From a virus, in the IMG/VR virus record IMGVR_UViG_3300006480_000001, positions 1 through 37,115 of that record: a DNA stretch of 37,115 nucleotides; one strand, 5' to 3'. Of the stretch, positions 28,886 through 35,613 are shown in pieces. The notes beneath the pieces were generated by a model. It made no database searches. It was given only the letters and a program-made list of their open reading frames with translations, and was not told where the DNA came from. Every line of letters starts with the position of its first letter. Within the stretch, counting starts at the first letter, position 1. A program made the translations under genes and the position numbers.

Positions 28886-31282
28886 CTATGTAAATATATA
28901 TGGTGCTGTCAACACATCTGTAATATCATAGTCTCCCATATCTAGTGCTGCTGGTAACTTATTTGTATCACTTAGTTGTTGTGTTGTTTGGTGGTATAAA
29001 TTATCTAGATTGTTGTCGCTATAAATGTTAAAGAAACTTTGCTTTACACATTCGATAAACCTTTGAAGTTCACTAGCTGGACTTCCATAGCAATCATGTA
29101 TGACACAAAAGTTTTTTAATCCATGCTTGCTTGCTTCAACTAAACTCATGTGGCAATGTGCAGCATCAAGACTATGTATATAATTACTAGGAAAACCCTG
29201 TGCCTGTTTGCGTTTATCTATCTTAGTAGTATCTGGTTCAGCAAGACTCAGCCTTACACTTGAGTTACTTAGTTTAGTCTTTACTCTTTTAACATCATTC
29301 TTGTAATAGTTCTGTTGTACAAGAAACCCTGATGGTGTATGCCAAGAGATAGGTTTGTTTTCTTTGTTAAAACATAACGCTGTAGTCTGTAAGTACTTCA
29401 ATACTTCATAGCTTTCTGGGGTTACATACTGAACTGCCTGTTCAATCATGGTTGCAAGATAAAAATTATTCTTAAAATTTTTTGCGATAAAAACATCTTC
29501 ATTAACAAAGTATCTTTCTATGTAGTTTGCTATGCCGAATGTAGTTGAGTTATATGGAATCATAAGTACAGGTTTCTTTATGAACTTTCTTGTCAACTTA
29601 TCTTTCTGTGCGTACCAGATTGGTGCTTCCTCTGCCTTGTCATACTTCAATAGCATCAAGAGAACATCAAGTATTTGTTTATATAAATCCTGTGGTTGTT
29701 TAACATTTTGTAGGTTAACTTTGTTAGCTAAATGTTGATTAGATATAAGACCTGCTATGTGTTGATACCCATTGTTTGTACCATCAAGGCAGCAAACATG
29801 ATGTGATATATAACCATACCCTTCGCATTGAAACTCGCACCACTCCTTACACCAAGACAAAAATTGGAATGGCTCTTTTGCTTTACCCCATATACCAACA
29901 CTACCTATCGGGTCTTTATAAACTTCTTCTGCTAGATCAGTACCTTCTATGTAAGCCCACTCTAATCTTTCTTCGTATGTATGTTTGCTCATACCCCAAT
30001 GATTGGCTCCGCTAATCGCCAGCCAGTTCAAGTCTTGTTTAGTTTTAATCTCTGCACCTTCATAGAATCTATGCAGCCCTCTAGCTATGTCATTACCTTG
30101 TGGGTGGAAGTGTGCAGTTAGTGGGTACATACGACCAGTAAAATCAAATTGATAAACGTGATAAAATTTTTCGCCACAATATCTTTTTGCTGTATCAATC
30201 ATGGATAGTATCTGATAACGCTTGACCATATTCTGTGCGTTCATATCATGTATTAAAGAAGCTAAGTATCTCCACTCCTTTCGTGATTGCTTATTGGTAT
30301 CTATATCGAGTGGTTTTGTTGGCAGTTCTGCAAGCTCCCTATCTATTAATGAACCAACCTCTATTCGTTCCTCCCAACAGTATTCAAGAGTTTCTAGTAC
30401 AAACTGATTTACACCCCAAGCTGTCTGACTCGCCAGAGTTAACGCTTTCAGACTTGTTGTTAAGTCTTCTCCTCGTAGTGTGTTTAGGTAGTCTTGATTA
30501 GAACTCTTGATTGCTTTTGTTTTTAGTCTGTCTGTAAAGTAACCACCATTGTCAATCGACTTCCAAGGGCGAGGTACATCAAGACAAGGTAGGTAGATAG
30601 GAAAGGCAGCAATCCTATTTGATCTACCCTGCCTTATATATTTCATAAACCTTTCAGTAAAAACTACATAGTTTGTTGTACCTTTACCTACCTTTTTGTT
30701 TATAAGGTTGACCATATTTATTTTTATCATTATCAACTCGATCAACTTCAGCCCAACCTTAAGTTTATTACCCCTTGTCCAAGTCTGAAACTCATGGCCT
30801 TTACTGTTCATGTGATAGACCATAAGGTTTCTTTTGTAGCCCTCGTTCTTGGTATCTCTGGTATGTTTCTTTATGTTCTTAAAATGTTTAGGGTCTAGCT
30901 CTTCAAACTTAGTAAACCTAAGTTCGTCTTCTAGCATCTGCCCTATCTTGAGTGCAGTAGATACAGTTGTCTTTAACTGCGAAGCATTATCTAGTAATAC
31001 TTTGAAAGCAATAAAGGCAACTACATCTACGTCTGGGAACTGAGAAAGAAACAAAGCAGAGACAGCTTTAACTCCTACCTTACCGCTAAGACTTTCATCT
31101 ATATGATCTTGTATTGCTTTGCTTAACTTCTGTAGTCCTGACTCTATGATGTTGCGAGCATAATAGTTCTCGGACTCCCTGCCCTTCTCTATATTTTTAT
31201 TTTGTTTACTGATCTTGTTATAGGCTGAGATGCTAGAGATACTTTGCTCTAGCTCTAGTTGTTTCTTGCTAGGCTCAACCAT
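28886..31282 (-). CDS. Single-subunit DNA-directed RNA polymerase (T7 gp1-like)
   Basis: A 798-aa phage RNA polymerase (T7: 883 aa), shorter mainly in the N-terminal part. The catalytic residues can be placed: Asp500 in CCLDGTNNGYQH, Arg565 and Lys569 in TRKFIKKPVLMIPYNS, Tyr577, His703 in NYIHSLDAAHCH, and Asp730 in CVIHDCYGSP. The FTGRMYPLTAHFHPQGNDIA segment matches T7 RGRVYAVSMFNPQGND. It reads the promoters described at 105 and 22821. The gene overlaps the 58-aa gene by eight bases and lies right after the integrase cluster. Confidence 0.97.
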   Translation of the reverse strand: MVEPSKKQLELEQSISSISAYNKISKQNKNIEKGRESENYYARNIIESGLQKLSKAIQDHIDESLSGKVGVKAVSALFLSQFPDVDVVAFIAFKVLLDNASQLKTTVSTALKIGQMLEDELRFTKFEELDPKHFKNIKKHTRDTKNEGYKRNLMVYHMNSKGHEFQTWTRGNKLKVGLKLIELIMIKINMVNLINKKVGKGTTNYVVFTERFMKYIRQGRSNRIAAFPIYLPCLDVPRPWKSIDNGGYFTDRLKTKAIKSSNQDYLNTLRGEDLTTSLKALTLASQTAWGVNQFVLETLEYCWEERIEVGSLIDRELAELPTKPLDIDTNKQSRKEWRYLASLIHDMNAQNMVKRYQILSMIDTAKRYCGEKFYHVYQFDFTGRMYPLTAHFHPQGNDIARGLHRFYEGAEIKTKQDLNWLAISGANHWGMSKHTYEERLEWAYIEGTDLAEEVYKDPIGSVGIWGKAKEPFQFLSWCKEWCEFQCEGYGYISHHVCCLDGTNNGYQHIAGLISNQHLANKVNLQNVKQPQDLYKQILDVLLMLLKYDKAEEAPIWYAQKDKLTRKFIKKPVLMIPYNSTTFGIANYIERYFVNEDVFIAKNFKNNFYLATMIEQAVQYVTPESYEVLKYLQTTALCFNKENKPISWHTPSGFLVQQNYYKNDVKRVKTKLSNSSVRLSLAEPDTTKIDKRKQAQGFPSNYIHSLDAAHCHMSLVEASKHGLKNFCVIHDCYGSPASELQRFIECVKQSFFNIYSDNNLDNLYHQTTQQLSDTNKLPAALDMGDYDITDVLTAPYIFT

Positions 31283-31451: not shown

Positions 31452-31687
31452 CAGTTCAACTTCTCCTTTTTCTTCTTAGGTTTAAGTGTTTGTTTGTTAT
31501 ATTCTTCAGCGTGTTTTGTTTGAATATCATGTAATTTTTTTAATATCTTTGTTACTTCAGGTTGATTTTCCGTATCACTAAACCTATGAATTTTGTAATC
31601 ATATTCAAGAGTTCTCAAGGCTGATCTAATGATTCTAAATTCCTTGTAAGTACATTTAATTATGTACTCGTCATACTTAACTGCCAT
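31451..31687 (-). CDS. 78-aa helical protein downstream of integrase
   Basis: A small protein with KYDEYIIKCTYKEFRIIRSA, LRTLEYDYKIHRFSDTENQ, VTKILKKLHDIQTKHAEEYN and a lysine-rich end. Both its start and its stop are coupled by TGATG overlaps, to the integrase before it and the 58-aa gene after it. The four genes from integrase to RNA polymerase thus form one tightly joined unit. Function unknown; the two-helix look resembles that of its 58-aa neighbour. Confidence 0.72.
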   Translation of the reverse strand: MAVKYDEYIIKCTYKEFRIIRSALRTLEYDYKIHRFSDTENQPEVTKILKKLHDIQTKHAEEYNKQTLKPKKKKEKLN

Positions 31688-32541
31688 CAGTTCAACACCT
31701 CCACTACAGAGTGCAAAGCCTTTGGTGCTAAGTGTGCATAGATCATAGTGTTCTCTATATCCTCATGCCCTAGCCAATCCTTGACCAGTAGTATCGGTAC
31801 TCCTCTTTGTACTAGCCTTGATGCACAGGTATGTCGGCATAGGTGGATAGTATAAAACTTCTTATCGGCATAGCCTAAGTCCTTCCTAGCCTTCTGCCAG
31901 ATAGCATTTAACCAAGCATAATTAACACCACAGAATACTTTTTCTGTTGGTCTTCCACTATAAGAAAGACATTTTTTCATTATCTTTTGTACTCTATCTG
32001 TCATAGGTACAGCTACAGCTTGATCGTTCTTTCTATCGTTAAAATTAATTTGATTGTTTTCAAAGTCAACAAATCTGTTTTCTAGATTCATTAGTTCATT
32101 TACTCTGCAACCTAAATCAATTAAACATTTAATAATTTCTGCTGCTAGCCAAGTGTTTGGATTTTGTTTTGAATAAAGATAATCTAATAAATCTTTTTCC
32201 ATATCCTCAGTTAGGTAATGCACCTTACTGTTCTTTGTTGGTCTAGGTTTTGGCATCTTAATCATCTCAATAAATCCGTCTTCCTCCATTTCTTGTAGTA
32301 CGACTCTGAGGTAGCCCATCTTCTGATTGACTACAGCATTACTATTCTTGTGTTCAGCTTTAAGAATATCCATCATCTTGTTAACCATAGGTCTAGTAAT
32401 TTTATTTACTGGTAGGTCACCAAGTGCTTTGATGTTATGCTTCATTCCTATCAAGAAATTAGTAGCAGATTTAGTTCCGTTCTTTCTTCTTTTATATACA
32501 ACTCTAGTTGCTTCAGAAAGTGTAGGCATTTTAGTTTTCAT
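31687..32541 (-). CDS. int: Tyrosine-type integrase/recombinase
   Basis: A 284-aa tyrosine recombinase. The catalytic set is complete: Arg146 in GCRVNEL, Lys171 in DRKND, His233 and Arg236 in HLCRHTCASRL, His259 in LGHEDIENTM and Tyr268 in IYAHL. The N-terminal 100 residues look like a SAM-like core-binding domain (SATNFLIGMKHNIKALGD; VNKMMDILKAEH). There is no separate arm-binding domain. Integrases next to the RNA polymerase gene are known in T7-like cyanophages and pelagiphages, some of which integrate into host tRNA genes. The leader has AAGAACCACC before the ATG. Integration ability is likely but not proven. Confidence 0.94.
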   Translation of the reverse strand: MKTKMPTLSEATRVVYKRRKNGTKSATNFLIGMKHNIKALGDLPVNKITRPMVNKMMDILKAEHKNSNAVVNQKMGYLRVVLQEMEEDGFIEMIKMPKPRPTKNSKVHYLTEDMEKDLLDYLYSKQNPNTWLAAEIIKCLIDLGCRVNELMNLENRFVDFENNQINFNDRKNDQAVAVPMTDRVQKIMKKCLSYSGRPTEKVFCGVNYAWLNAIWQKARKDLGYADKKFYTIHLCRHTCASRLVQRGVPILLVKDWLGHEDIENTMIYAHLAPKALHSVVEVLN

Positions 32542-32549
32542 GGTGGTTC

Positions 32550-32783
32550 TTAGTTAGGTGTTAGGTCATCTATCATTTCAAGATAGCCCTGCTTACCAAA
32601 GGCGATAAGATCAGGGATTGTATATTCTCTTGTGGTAAATCTATGACCACAAGAAAGGCACACCCTACGTCTATAGACATAAGGTGTGATGCTTTTGTTT
32701 CGGAAACCTATTGTTTGTTCAGCTTTTCTATGCTTAGTTTCGAGAACTTTGATGTCTAGGCTTTCGCATTTAGTACACTTCAT
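32550..32783 (-). CDS. NrdR-like zinc ribbon protein without ATP cone
   Basis: A 77-aa protein with a four-cysteine zinc ribbon: MKCTKCESLDIKVLETKHRK and YRRRVCLSCGHRFTTREYTI. This is the N-terminal DNA-binding module of NrdR, the repressor of ribonucleotide reductase genes. The ATP-cone domain that follows in NrdR is missing; the protein ends after IPDLIAFGKQGYLEMIDDL. It could act on phage or host promoters. GGAGGAA is before the ATG. It lies eight bases before the integrase. Confidence 0.82.
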   Translation of the reverse strand: MKCTKCESLDIKVLETKHRKAEQTIGFRNKSITPYVYRRRVCLSCGHRFTTREYTIPDLIAFGKQGYLEMIDDLTPN

Positions 32784-32786
32784 TGG

Positions 32787-32930
32787 TCAAAGTGATTCCT
32801 CCCAGAATTTAATTAGTTCTTTTAATTCAGCAATCCTTTTCTTGGCTACTGATGTTTTCTCAGCCTTGCGTATGCTGATTTGTTTCAGCATCTTCTGAGT
32901 TTCTTCGTTGATCTCTTCCATAAAGTTCAT
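32787..32930 (-). CDS. 47-aa coiled-coil-like protein
   Basis: A small helical protein: NFMEEINEETQKMLKQISIR, KAEKTSVAKKRIAELKELIK and FWEESL. Heptad-like spacing of Ile and Leu suggests a coiled coil. It lies 5 bases after the stop of the 72-aa gene, and its last codons (TGGGAGGAATCA) supply the Shine-Dalgarno for the zinc-ribbon gene three bases further on. I do not know the family; the tight spacing supports translation. Confidence 0.62.
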   Translation of the reverse strand: MNFMEEINEETQKMLKQISIRKAEKTSVAKKRIAELKELIKFWEESL

Positions 32931-32935
32931 AGTAA

Positions 32936-33154
32936 TTACCCCCATTTAAGTTCAATAAAATAATCACCAAGTGATAATAATGCTTTTAAAGAAAACGTAT
33001 ACAAAGGATAATCCCTTTCATCTTCTTCGTTATCCCAAGCAAGCTCTTCAATTAATTGCTCCCTTAAATCTTTAAAAGTTTTATAGGTCAATATTGGTGC
33101 ATCTTGCATATCGCCATATCTAACTATGGTCATTTTTTTTCTATCTCTTTTCAT
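32936..33154 (-). CDS. 72-aa hypothetical protein after the hairpin array
   Basis: A small acidic protein: KRDRKKMTIVRYGDMQDAPI, LTYKTFKDLREQLIEELAWD, NEEDERDYPLYTFSLKALLS and LGDYFIELKWG. The ATG has the strongest ribosome site of the early region, AAAGGAGGAACCACA, which joins a normal Shine-Dalgarno to the GAACCAC element seen elsewhere. It is the first gene downstream of the 547-base structured non-coding region, so its expression may depend on that region. Function unknown. Confidence 0.75.
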   Translation of the reverse strand: MKRDRKKMTIVRYGDMQDAPILTYKTFKDLREQLIEELAWDNEEDERDYPLYTFSLKALLSLGDYFIELKWG

Positions 33155-33701
33155 TGTGGTTCCTCCTTTAAAATTAGGTTGATTGTTTAGGTGAAGGTTT
33201 TAATCGTAAACCTACAACGAAAGGGTTGACGTGAATCACGATGCACTCCATAGGTGCGAATCGGTGGGAGTCGAACTAATCATCTCTCTAAGCTATTAAC
33301 CATAAGAGATGTTGAAAGATAGTTTTGATCGTGAACTATCAACGATTGTATTGTTGGGCGGTGCTGGGCTGCACATGGCGACACGTTCCTGCGAATACAG
33401 GGGCAATGGTAAGTCACCTCGCAAACCTATTAAGTTATAGAGGTGTTAAGGATAGTTCTTAATCGTAGAACTAACAAGCGAAAGAATCTCAATGAGTCGT
33501 GATGCAACATGATACAAAGCTTGACCAAGTGCAGAATCGTCAAGGTCACCTCGCAAACCTATTAAGTTATAGAGGTGTTAAAGCTAGTTCTTAATCGTGG
33601 AACTAGCAAGCGATTGTATTTCGGGGTGTTGATGCAAACTGCATGACGTAACGGGAAGAAGCCTAGTTTAAGTAGGACTTACACATAAAGATGCCTACAA
33701 G
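33155..33701 (-). ncRNA. 547-base non-coding region with four-unit structured repeat array
   Basis: No convincing gene lies here. Four units spaced 123-134 bases apart carry a hairpin with conserved loop (plus-strand TTAATCGT type) and changing stem: 33195-33213 (AGGTTT), 33318-33340 (GATAGTT), 33453-33473 (TAGTTC) and 33583-33607 (GCTAGTTC). Three units also have a second hairpin: 33281-33311 (CATCTCT stem), 33415-33445 and 33547-33577 (CACCTC stem, identical 19-base loop). Extra small hairpins occur between them (33361-33374, 33388-33401, 33520-33544, 33632-33644). The stems change in pairs, which suggests a selected structure. A role as RNA, recombination site or origin is open; the strand given is that of the surrounding transcription. 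Confidence 0.6.
33253..33276 (-). other. tRNA T-arm/acceptor-like stretch, possible attP core
   Basis: The minus strand here reads GTTCGACTCCCACC followed by GATTCGCACC. GTTCGANTC is the invariant T-loop pattern, and the rest looks like the 3' half of a T-stem and acceptor, but the upstream bases do not complete a T-stem and the spacing to the CC end is one base off. It is not a functional tRNA. Phages of this type often carry the 3' end of a host tRNA gene as attP, and the integrase gene lies 0.7 kb downstream. Confidence 0.35.
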
Positions 33702-34220
33702 TTAGTCTTCATCTGGTGGTTTTATTTTTGGAATAGTACCACCATCTTTTTCTATCCGCACTACTTGTTTCTTTGCACCATCAACAGCAGAGGAGATAAA
33801 AGCATGGCGACCTTGATTAGAATGAAGTCTATCTTTGTCATACTGACTAAGATTATCTTCATCAATCCTATTAAACATTTTTCTAGTAGCTGTTTTATGT
33901 ATGTTCAAACCTGTATAAGCTCTCTTATTAAGATAAGATACAGCTTCTTCATCAGTTAAAATATACAAAGAACCTTTGTCTTGTCTAATAACTAAAGGTT
34001 TACCTATTGAAACCCTACTTTCATCTATCCACTCTTTAACTTGTAAAGATCTAAAACTAATATCTCTATTAGCATGATTAGATTTAGAAATGAATCCTTT
34101 TGTTGATAAAAGAAAGTACATTTCTTCTACCTTTTCAGCATCAATGGTCTGACCTTTTTTAAGTTCTCGCCAAGCAATACCACAAATTTGGATAGGATAA
34201 TCTTCAGCGTTAGGTTTCAT
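33702..34220 (-). CDS. 172-aa hypothetical protein paired with RAMP-like candidate
   Basis: A protein with ICGIAWRELKKGQTIDAEKV, MYFLLSTKGFISKSNHANRD, SLYILTDEEAVSYLNKRAYT and an end rich in Lys, Pro and Asp (DGGTIPKIKPPDED). It resembles no family I can name. The ATG overlaps the stop of the upstream 217-aa gene (ATGA), so both are probably made together and may work together. After its stop the long structured non-coding region starts. Confidence 0.75.
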   Translation of the reverse strand: MKPNAEDYPIQICGIAWRELKKGQTIDAEKVEEMYFLLSTKGFISKSNHANRDISFRSLQVKEWIDESRVSIGKPLVIRQDKGSLYILTDEEAVSYLNKRAYTGLNIHKTATRKMFNRIDEDNLSQYDKDRLHSNQGRHAFISSAVDGAKKQVVRIEKDGGTIPKIKPPDED

Positions 34221-34870
34221 TCGTCTACCTCCTGTAAATTTGTTACGACAAACCTGCCATATCTAGGTCGCCAAGTACCAAGCCCTTCAGCCTTACCTGC
34301 CATGTTAGCTATACGTCTTAGTTGATCTATACCCATAAGCTCATCATCAATGATGAGATGAAAGGTAGCTGACCAGTTAGGAAACAATAATCTGTTTACC
34401 CATACACCCCTTCTTGTAAAAGCTGCGAGTTGATACTTTGGTTCTCTTGAATTAATTAAATTCAAAGCATCTTTTTCTTCTGGTTCTTTTGCACCAAAAT
34501 TAATCTCTGGATTAGTGTCAACAAAGATAGCTCTTGATACATCTTTACCAAGCTTCCATTTCTTAGCAGCTTCTTTCAAACATTTTTGTAGGTTAGCTGC
34601 TGGTAAATAAGGGTTACTAAACCCTTCAAAAGATACAGAGTTTTCACTTTCATCAAGTGTAACTTTACCTTCTTTCTTCCAATAGCCAGAGTAAAGCCAA
34701 TCCAAAATACGAATAGCCCTATGGACTCCTTCTGTTTTTGCATTGCCTTTCTTATCTGTAAAGAATTTCTTGGTTTTTTGATGCTGTCCTATTGGGTCAG
34801 AGTAATTAACATTTCCACATAGTAAAGGTGTTGTACCTTGTACTGAAATGTTTACGAAGCGTTGTGTCAT
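34217..34870 (-). CDS. 217-aa early protein, possible RAMP-like fold
   Basis: The N-terminus RFVNISVQGTTPLLCGNVNY has the beta-strand plus PLL pattern seen at the start of Cas7-type RAMP proteins. The C-terminus GKAEGLGTWRPRYGRFVVTN matches a pattern I recall from unannotated proteins of many phages (GxGDWRPxxGRFxV). The middle has YLPAANLQKCLKEAAKKWKL and FTRRGVWVNRLLFPNWSATF. No catalytic residues can be named, and no Cas genes or CRISPR array are present, so any link to RNA binding is speculation. AGAACC precedes the ATG. It is coupled by ATGA to the next gene. Confidence 0.75.
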   Translation of the reverse strand: MTQRFVNISVQGTTPLLCGNVNYSDPIGQHQKTKKFFTDKKGNAKTEGVHRAIRILDWLYSGYWKKEGKVTLDESENSVSFEGFSNPYLPAANLQKCLKEAAKKWKLGKDVSRAIFVDTNPEINFGAKEPEEKDALNLINSREPKYQLAAFTRRGVWVNRLLFPNWSATFHLIIDDELMGIDQLRRIANMAGKAEGLGTWRPRYGRFVVTNLQEVDE

Positions 34871-34878
34871 GGTTCTGT

Positions 34879-35067
34879 TTAGTTAGTTTTGATTTGGTTG
34901 ATTGTTTTAATGATCTCTTTTTTAAAGAGTTCAATAGACTCATTCATTGAAAGGTTGCCACCTTTATCATGTGGCAGGTTTATTGAATAAGATGTATCGG
35001 TTAGTCTTGCAGCTTTTGTGAGTATCTCATCAAGTTCTGCAAGCGTCTGCCATTGTGATCTAGTCAT
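34879..35067 (-). CDS. 62-aa hypothetical early protein
   Basis: A small protein: TRSQWQTLAELDEILTKAAR, LTDTSYSINLPHDKGGNLSM, NESIELFKKEIIKTINQIK. The ATG at 35067 follows AGGAA at a fair distance; other in-frame starts are ATG 35073 and TTG 35085, so the N-terminus is uncertain by up to six residues. The start overlaps the stop of the 49-aa gene. Function unknown. Confidence 0.62.
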   Translation of the reverse strand: MTRSQWQTLAELDEILTKAARLTDTSYSINLPHDKGGNLSMNESIELFKKEIIKTINQIKTN

Positions 35068-35209
35068 CTTCATTTCCTGATTCAATATCAGCTAGTGAAG
35101 ATTGTTGTATCAATGCAAGTGTGTCATTAATTGCATCTTCAAATTCTTCAGAGTGGTCTAGTCCTAGACCTTGTGAAGTAAGTTGATTGAAGTATTCGTA
35201 AATAGTCAA
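35060..35209 (-). CDS. 49-aa acidic protein with TTG start
   Basis: A small acidic protein: TIYEYFNQLTSQGLGLDHSE, EFEDAINDTLALIQQSSLAD, IESGNEDD. No ATG exists in this frame; TTG at 35209 follows CAGGAGCCACA, which includes a usable Shine-Dalgarno. The last bases overlap the next gene. Acidic small early proteins of phages often inhibit host enzymes, but nothing here shows a target. Confidence 0.45.
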   Translation of the reverse strand: MTIYEYFNQLTSQGLGLDHSEEFEDAINDTLALIQQSSLADIESGNEDD

Positions 35210-35241
35210 GGCTTGTGGCTCCTGTAGTTTGGTTAATGGTA

Positions 35242-35271
35242 TTTGGCATACCTGTATATGAGTATGCCAAA
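35242..35271 (-). promoter_or_regulatory. Perfect 10-bp inverted repeat
   Basis: Arms TTTGGCATAC (35242-35251) and GTATGCCAAA (35262-35271) pair perfectly around a 10-base loop. No T run follows on either strand, so it is not a standard terminator. It lies 33 bases before the TTG-start gene. It may be an operator, a processing signal or a stabilising leader hairpin like those at 35641, 36042 and 36494. Confidence 0.6.
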
Positions 35272-35282
35272 GGATAAAAGAA

Positions 35283-35315
35283 AAGTCAACCTAGTTTTTA
35301 AAATTAAATTGACTT
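35283..35315 (-). terminator. Weak terminator candidate
   Basis: On the minus strand, AAGTCAA (35315-35309) can pair with TTGACTT (35289-35283) around a 19-base AT-rich loop, followed by TTTTCTTTT. The stem has few G-C pairs and the loop is long, so termination would be weak at best. It lies after the 91-aa gene. Confidence 0.3.
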
Positions 35316-35337
35316 GTTGATGTCCAGCTAGGGAAAA

Positions 35338-35613
35338 CTAAGAGGTTTTCACTTTTCTGTTGCGGTATGAGTCAAGCATTGTGCTGAACCCTCCCATTTG
35401 AACTATCGTTAAATGTCTTTGAATTTCAAAGAAGTGTTCAAGATCATTTGATAATTGATACTTGCTTACTGATTCAACGTGTTCATGTGCAATCCAATCT
35501 TCAACTAAATCTACTTTGTGTTGTGCATCTAAAGGCGAGCAACAAAAGTCTTGATTATCGTTAAGCCAAAACTTTCTGTTGTAGCTTTTTGATGTGATTG
35601 TTTTGTGTTTCAT
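35338..35613 (-). CDS. 91-aa hypothetical early protein
   Basis: A protein starting KHKTITSKSYNRKFWLNDNQ, followed by DFCCSPLDAQHKVDLVEDWI, AHEHVESVSKYQLSNDLEHF and FEIQRHLTIVQMGGF. Cys-Cys and several His could bind metal. The ATG at 35613 is chosen because it follows TTAGAACCACA, the leader element shared by early genes; the longer frame to 35703 would run through a hairpin leader. Function unknown. Confidence 0.68.
   Translation of the reverse strand: MKHKTITSKSYNRKFWLNDNQDFCCSPLDAQHKVDLVEDWIAHEHVESVSKYQLSNDLEHFFEIQRHLTIVQMGGFSTMLDSYRNRKVKTS

Follow-up and report, generated by a model that had tools for sequence, protein, structure and literature searches.

In this study, we analyzed a 37,115-base viral record, IMGVR_UViG_3300006480_000001 (the whole stretch is hereafter the window), from a T7-like podovirus. 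Our findings indicate that the structured units at 33195-33698 very probably make up a vrRNA array belonging to a VIPR system, carried by a podovirus that is related to phage P-SCSP2 of Prochlorococcus. Three independent lines agree on this reading: homology of a neighboring protein to Vipr, a strict 5-nt period, and covarying pseudoknot tails like those of phage SUSP1. VIPR (Viral Interference Programmable Repeat), reported in April 2026, is a CRISPR-like machine that viruses are believed to use for silencing the genes of rivals; the members studied best so far belong to a phage of E. coli and a prophage of Pseudomonas (PMC13142463). Its parts are Vipr, one vap gene and vrRNAs with 9-16 YNNGG repeats and a structured 3′ tail, the NN letters reading dsDNA with one base skipped per step (PMC13142463). 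The preprint gives the repeat trinucleotide as GGY "or a related consensus" and describes seven types, found chiefly in phages, proviruses or mobile elements (PMC13142463). Of the features by which membership is judged, five are present here: a Vipr RAMP, the vipr and vap pair, pentanucleotide tracts, a structured 3′ tail and viral carriage. As far as that preprint shows, the system is new in this phage lineage.

Genomic Setting and Anatomy of the Array

The RNA polymerase of the window is 72% identical to its homologue in P-SCSP2, a podovirus from a study of cyanopodoviruses without a DNA polymerase gene (PMC9860041). In the window we noted RNA polymerase, primase/helicase and exonuclease-sized genes, with no obvious DNA polymerase among the ORFs. 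The minus strand carries the main genes, and the array has a gene of 172 aa (33702-34220) on one side and one of 72 aa (32936-33154) on the other. A tyrosine integrase (31687-32541) is found nearby and is adjoined by a 77-aa protein with an NrdR-like zinc ribbon (32550-32783, minus strand; Pfam PF22811, E 8e-10). A tRNA scan, a scan of the window for Rfam families at gathering score, and a DNA search against cultured phages all returned no match.

The original prediction, made from the window alone, had described four hairpins at 33195, 33318, 33453 and 33583 with fixed loops, differing but self-complementary stems and a period of about 130 bases. All four were found at these positions, with start-to-start distances of 123, 135 and 130 nt, and nowhere else in the 37-kb window is a TRATCGT loop carried on a stem of 5 bp or more. 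Three units also contain the second hairpin that had been described, with CTATTAA in its loop (33281, 33415 and 33547), the fourth being closed by a different hairpin at 33672. Read on the minus strand, the array comprises four predicted vrRNAs. The first has a 5′ hairpin at 33672-33698 (stem GTAGG/CCTAC), whose loop, ACTTACACATAAAGATG, recurs with other stems in two relatives (L090 and L111), followed by a tract of 11 pentamers (YKY/NN; 33616-33670) and a 3′ pseudoknot tail at 33583-33615, with the stem GCTAGTTCT/GGAACTAGC. The second consists of a 5′ hairpin (33547-33577), 12 pentamers (33484-33543) and a tail (33453-33483; stem TAGTTCT/AGAACTA); the third of a 5′ hairpin (33415-33445), 13 pentamers (33348-33412) and a tail (33318-33347; stem GATAGTTT/GAACTATC). 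The fourth, with a 5′ hairpin (33281-33311), 11 pentamers (33223-33277) and a tail (33195-33222; stem AGGTTT/AAACCT), ends the array.

Covariation and the Pseudoknot Tail

Homologous arrays were collected from IMG/VR with the 172-aa and 217-aa neighbor proteins as baits; each has between 2 and about 8 units, which measure 95-245 nt. Among 109 unique hairpin copies we observed 18 different 5-bp stem sequences, and 97% of the cells in the five inner stem pairs are Watson-Crick. Covariation in relatives had been set beforehand as the test of the structure, and the outcome was strongly positive: in 58 gap-free copies the score was 0.261 versus 0.078 in shuffles, none of 500 shuffles scoring as high, while sliding the structure along the alignment gave at most 0.091, and changes on both sides of a pair numbered 65 cells against a mean of 20 in shuffles. 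The claim of a selected, structured array without coding function is borne out. Folded as a single RNA, the whole array is mildly more stable than shuffled sequences (z of -1.5 and -2.1 on the two strands), so that stability alone would have missed the structure.

A further element, absent from the original prediction, is a pseudoknot in which the loop pairs with an ACGA/TCGT strand beside the stem. The pseudoknot stem S1 covaries and is paired in 94% of cases, and the TCGT/ACGA core of S2 is kept. Each unit reads on the minus strand as repeats, TCGT, stem, ACGA with an A-rich loop end, and stem; every unit has the pseudoknot, while the second hairpin is missing from some. In SUSP1 vrRNAs a four-base strand at the end of the tract pairs with the loop of the next hairpin (GTAG/CTAC, GTGG/CCAC, AAGG/CCTT), and the tail loop has an A-rich stretch at its end. 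Order and topology of the SUSP1 tails (PMC13142463 Fig. 2D,E) are those of the pseudoknots in these units.

Pentanucleotide Tracts and the Noncontiguous Code

Between the hairpins lie tracts whose autocorrelation peaks at lags of 5, 10, 15 and 20, a period that had previously been missed. Across 116 homologous tracts a cyclic HMM of period 5 scores 1470 nats above background, compared with 3-33 nats for periods 3, 4, 6 and 7 and 3-8 nats after shuffling. Plus-strand pentamers follow the pattern G/A, A/C, A/G, N, N (GMR/NN) and minus-strand ones YKY/NN, whose trinucleotide is not GGY. The signal belongs to the family, the pentamer score of a single tract alone not being significant in 37 kb. 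An isolated high score for the pentamer pattern at 30566-30615 (plus-strand register), inside the RNA polymerase gene, falls within the range of random sequence and probably reflects composition.

The 135 guides form 58 families, some of them common to distant phages, and this sharing allows the two parts of the pentamer to be compared. In shared-guide pairs of 70-80% identity, the two N positions have difference ratios, relative to unrelated guides, of 0.28 and 0.32, versus 0.57, 0.43 and 0.48 at the trinucleotide positions; pairs of 62-70% identity, many of which are probably not homologous, show no such contrast. The clearest example is a guide of L086 and L107, which are different phages: its two versions share almost every NN letter, and most of the scaffold has been replaced. 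At the level of sequence, such retention of the NN letters is natural evidence for a noncontiguous code.

The vipr and vap Genes

The vipr gene (34217-34870, minus strand) encodes a protein of 217 aa that sequence and model matches predict to be a single RAMP, or Cas7-like, RNA-binding protein. With phmmer its sole match among solved structures is PDB 36pp_D, "SUSP1 Vipr protein" (E 5e-13), and its profile matches the same chain over nearly the full length (E 3e-66), at 30% identity between the two proteins. The AlphaFold model (pLDDT 81) has as its top PDB matches only Cas7-type RAMPs, mainly Csm3, the best at Z 9.7 over 158 residues; 36pp is not among the Foldseek matches listed, and it is the sequence match to 36pp_D that carries the identification. 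A G-loop-like GLGTWRPRYGRF is conserved to SUSP1, and the predicted protein is a minimal single-RRM RAMP with a G-loop, as is expected of a Vipr. Homologues occur in 128 cultured-phage records, mainly of Felixounavirus/Suspvirus-type enterophages together with Gordonia and Mycobacterium phages, nearly all annotated "hypothetical protein"; these are likely unrecognized Vipr proteins.

The vap candidate (33702-34220, minus strand; 172 aa) owes its assignment to its position in the operon and its conservation with vipr. It overlaps vipr by 4 nt (ATGA) and stays beside it in relatives, giving the minimal locus of vipr plus vap. Its model (pLDDT 79) predicts a small helix/strand domain followed by two long helices. 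No match was found in Pfam, PHROGs, PADLOC, NCBIfam or PDB, no relative in cultured phages and no significant structural match for the model, and the similarity to SUSP1 Vap1 is not significant.

The tandem pseudoknotted RNA beside a gene of about 170 aa does recall type III toxin-antitoxin loci, since ToxIN-like arrays place such RNA next to a small protein gene, and the pseudoknots of this or some other structured sRNA array could serve to inhibit the 172-aa protein. We consider this very improbable: that protein, which would have to be a toxin of the ToxN/CptN/TenpN kind, has no toxin or defense match in the databases scanned (a divergent toxin would still be compatible with this), the units hold long variable tracts with a 5-nt code, the gene closely tied to them encodes a RAMP with homology to a solved Vipr, and there is no Rfam match.

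With Class 1 CRISPR-Cas systems, and their Csm3/Cas7 filaments, the locus shares the RAMP fold and an array of guide units downstream of protein genes, but it has a single RAMP with no other recognizable cas gene adjoining, its stems vary by unit, and its tracts are built on a 5-nt scaffold instead of being plain spacers. A CRISPR-Cas locus would have several cas genes and repeats that are nearly identical, set between spacers of foreign origin. No other cas family was matched among the neighboring proteins scanned, and with 18 stem sequences and coded tracts the array was rejected as a CRISPR-Cas array.

The closest known system is the VIPR of SUSP1 (type II, PDB 36pp), which likewise has a whole-length RAMP homologue, a small partner gene downstream of it and, further downstream on the same strand, a guide-RNA array with variable-NN pentamers, a hairpin before each tract and an H-type pseudoknot tail with an A-rich end. 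Here, in contrast, the trinucleotide is YKY and not GGY, Vipr is 30% identical, Vap lacks a detectable sequence relation, and the carriers are marine podoviruses whose arrays, of up to about 8 units, exchange guides between phages. With its YKY/NN consensus, unlike the GGY/NN of SUSP1, the array possibly represents a distinct VIPR type, or else belongs to one of the seven types of the preprint.

Strand and Proposed Mechanism

The vrRNAs are most likely read from the minus strand, in the direction of vipr and vap, as suggested by the bias of wobble pairs, the SUSP1-like order on that strand and the obligatory pseudoknot. The same VIPR system could in principle have plus-strand vrRNAs convergent with vipr and vap. 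In that arrangement the repeats would be GMR/NN, the pseudoknot would form a 5′ leader and the second hairpin the 3′ tail; the plus strand is G/A-rich, its trinucleotide retains a G as in GGY, and 34 of the 109 copies close the 7-nt loop with a T.G pair on that strand. We nevertheless regard this as unlikely, given that the topology of the SUSP1 tail and its A-rich loop end are matched on the minus strand only, that wobble pairs number 6 on the minus and 0 on the plus strand in S1, and 11 and 4, respectively, in the 5′ hairpins, and that the pseudoknot is obligatory while the other hairpin is optional. Moreover, the array lies between minus-strand genes and abuts the vap stop codon in the relatives L068-L078.

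With minus-strand vrRNAs, a transcript through vipr, vap and the array would be processed into four vrRNAs, each with an optional 5′ hairpin, 11-13 YKY/NN repeats and a 3′ H-type pseudoknot tail. By analogy with the systems of the preprint, Vipr, a single-RRM RAMP, would coat the repeat tract and hold the tail, the exposed NN letters would pair with a dsDNA target with one base skipped between dinucleotides, and the bound complexes would block transcription with the help of a DNA-binding-like Vap (PMC13142463).

An Accessory Module

At least two tails occur in 42 of 55 loci with vipr/vap, against none of 56 loci without these genes, from which L111, holding a vipr fragment, was set aside; most of the remaining vipr/vap loci, with fewer than two tails, end at a contig edge or have a divergent tail. 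In one relative (L037) the flanks are 92% identical to the window and about 0.5 kb replaces the 2.7 kb at 32930-35610, module included; P-SCSP2 (L002) likewise keeps the flanking genes and lacks vipr, vap and array. Its absence from both, despite conserved flanks, marks the locus as an accessory module. Several relatives (L069, L072-L078) have a pseudoknot tail (TCGTTTTCTGTTAACGA...AAACAGA) directly before vipr, matching the one vrRNA that lies upstream of vipr in SUSP1.

That the units are folded ssDNA recombination sites, attC-like cassettes for the nearby tyrosine integrase, would accord with their reshuffling between relatives and with the position of that gene, but is scarcely credible when the 56 loci without vipr, nearly all with an integrase, have no such units, the variable tracts hold a 5-nt code and no ORFs, and the shuffling is explained by homologous recombination between repeats. 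Of the two options originally offered, RNA or folded single-stranded DNA, the first has held, most likely as minus-strand RNA, and the second has not. Arrays of vrRNA type were found in viral contigs only; a pattern scan of genome contigs detected none, nor did 251 picocyanobacterial genomes yield any, and no Vipr relatives turned up among bacterial genomes, a searched set with no positive control.

Candidate Targets

Exact patterns with a 1-nt skip found no match in IMG/VR for the window guides at 33616 and 33348, for the guide of L086/L107 or for the most widespread guide family; for the guide at 33223-33277 three short matches were returned, none extending past the searched pairs. Taken together, the 135 guides showed no excess of skip-1 over other skips, either against 1.55 Mb of related phage DNA or against one 1.66-Mb Prochlorococcus genome.

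For the guide at 33223-33277, the ten NN pairs next to the tail-proximal ones are all matched (20 of 20 bases) with a 1-nt skip in 10 of 251 picocyanobacterial genomes, and four more have the site with one further mismatch. In each of three genomes looked at more closely, the site (e.g. G183:C1:1367709 in a Prochlorococcus-type genome, and homologous sites) corresponds to the SEPDAYSIDT codons of a gene assigned to the EVE domain (Pfam PF01878, E 5e-53), and all the skips fall on wobble positions. In other organisms the EVE domain is a reader of modified bases. The reversed-pattern control gave one match and the same guide bases with a 2-nt skip five scattered partial matches in 131 genomes; allowing for the guides and windows tried, and counting related genomes as one event, we estimate a chance of ~0.001-0.01 for the site. 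From sequence matching, the Prochlorococcus EVE-domain gene is a candidate target of this guide, and a candidate only. For the guide at 33348, three genomes contain a site that matches less well (21 of 24) and is likewise in frame, and a third guide has no match in 131 genomes.

More tentatively, and with considerable doubt, we suggest that these loci may form a VIPR type of their own, whose code is the pyrimidine YKY/NN, an accessory module of abundant marine podoviruses whose guides are traded and in some cases aimed at host genes, such as the EVE-domain gene of Prochlorococcus, and not only at rival phages or satellites.

Overall, our findings would extend VIPR to a lineage with widespread marine cyanophages among its relatives, in the form of an accessory module with an array and two small proteins. 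Shared guides that keep their NN letters while the scaffold drifts offer natural, experiment-free support for the noncontiguous code. GGY is not the only trinucleotide that can serve as scaffold, a point directly relevant to guide reading by the RAMP. The system also raises the question of who is targeted in the ocean's most abundant phototroph.
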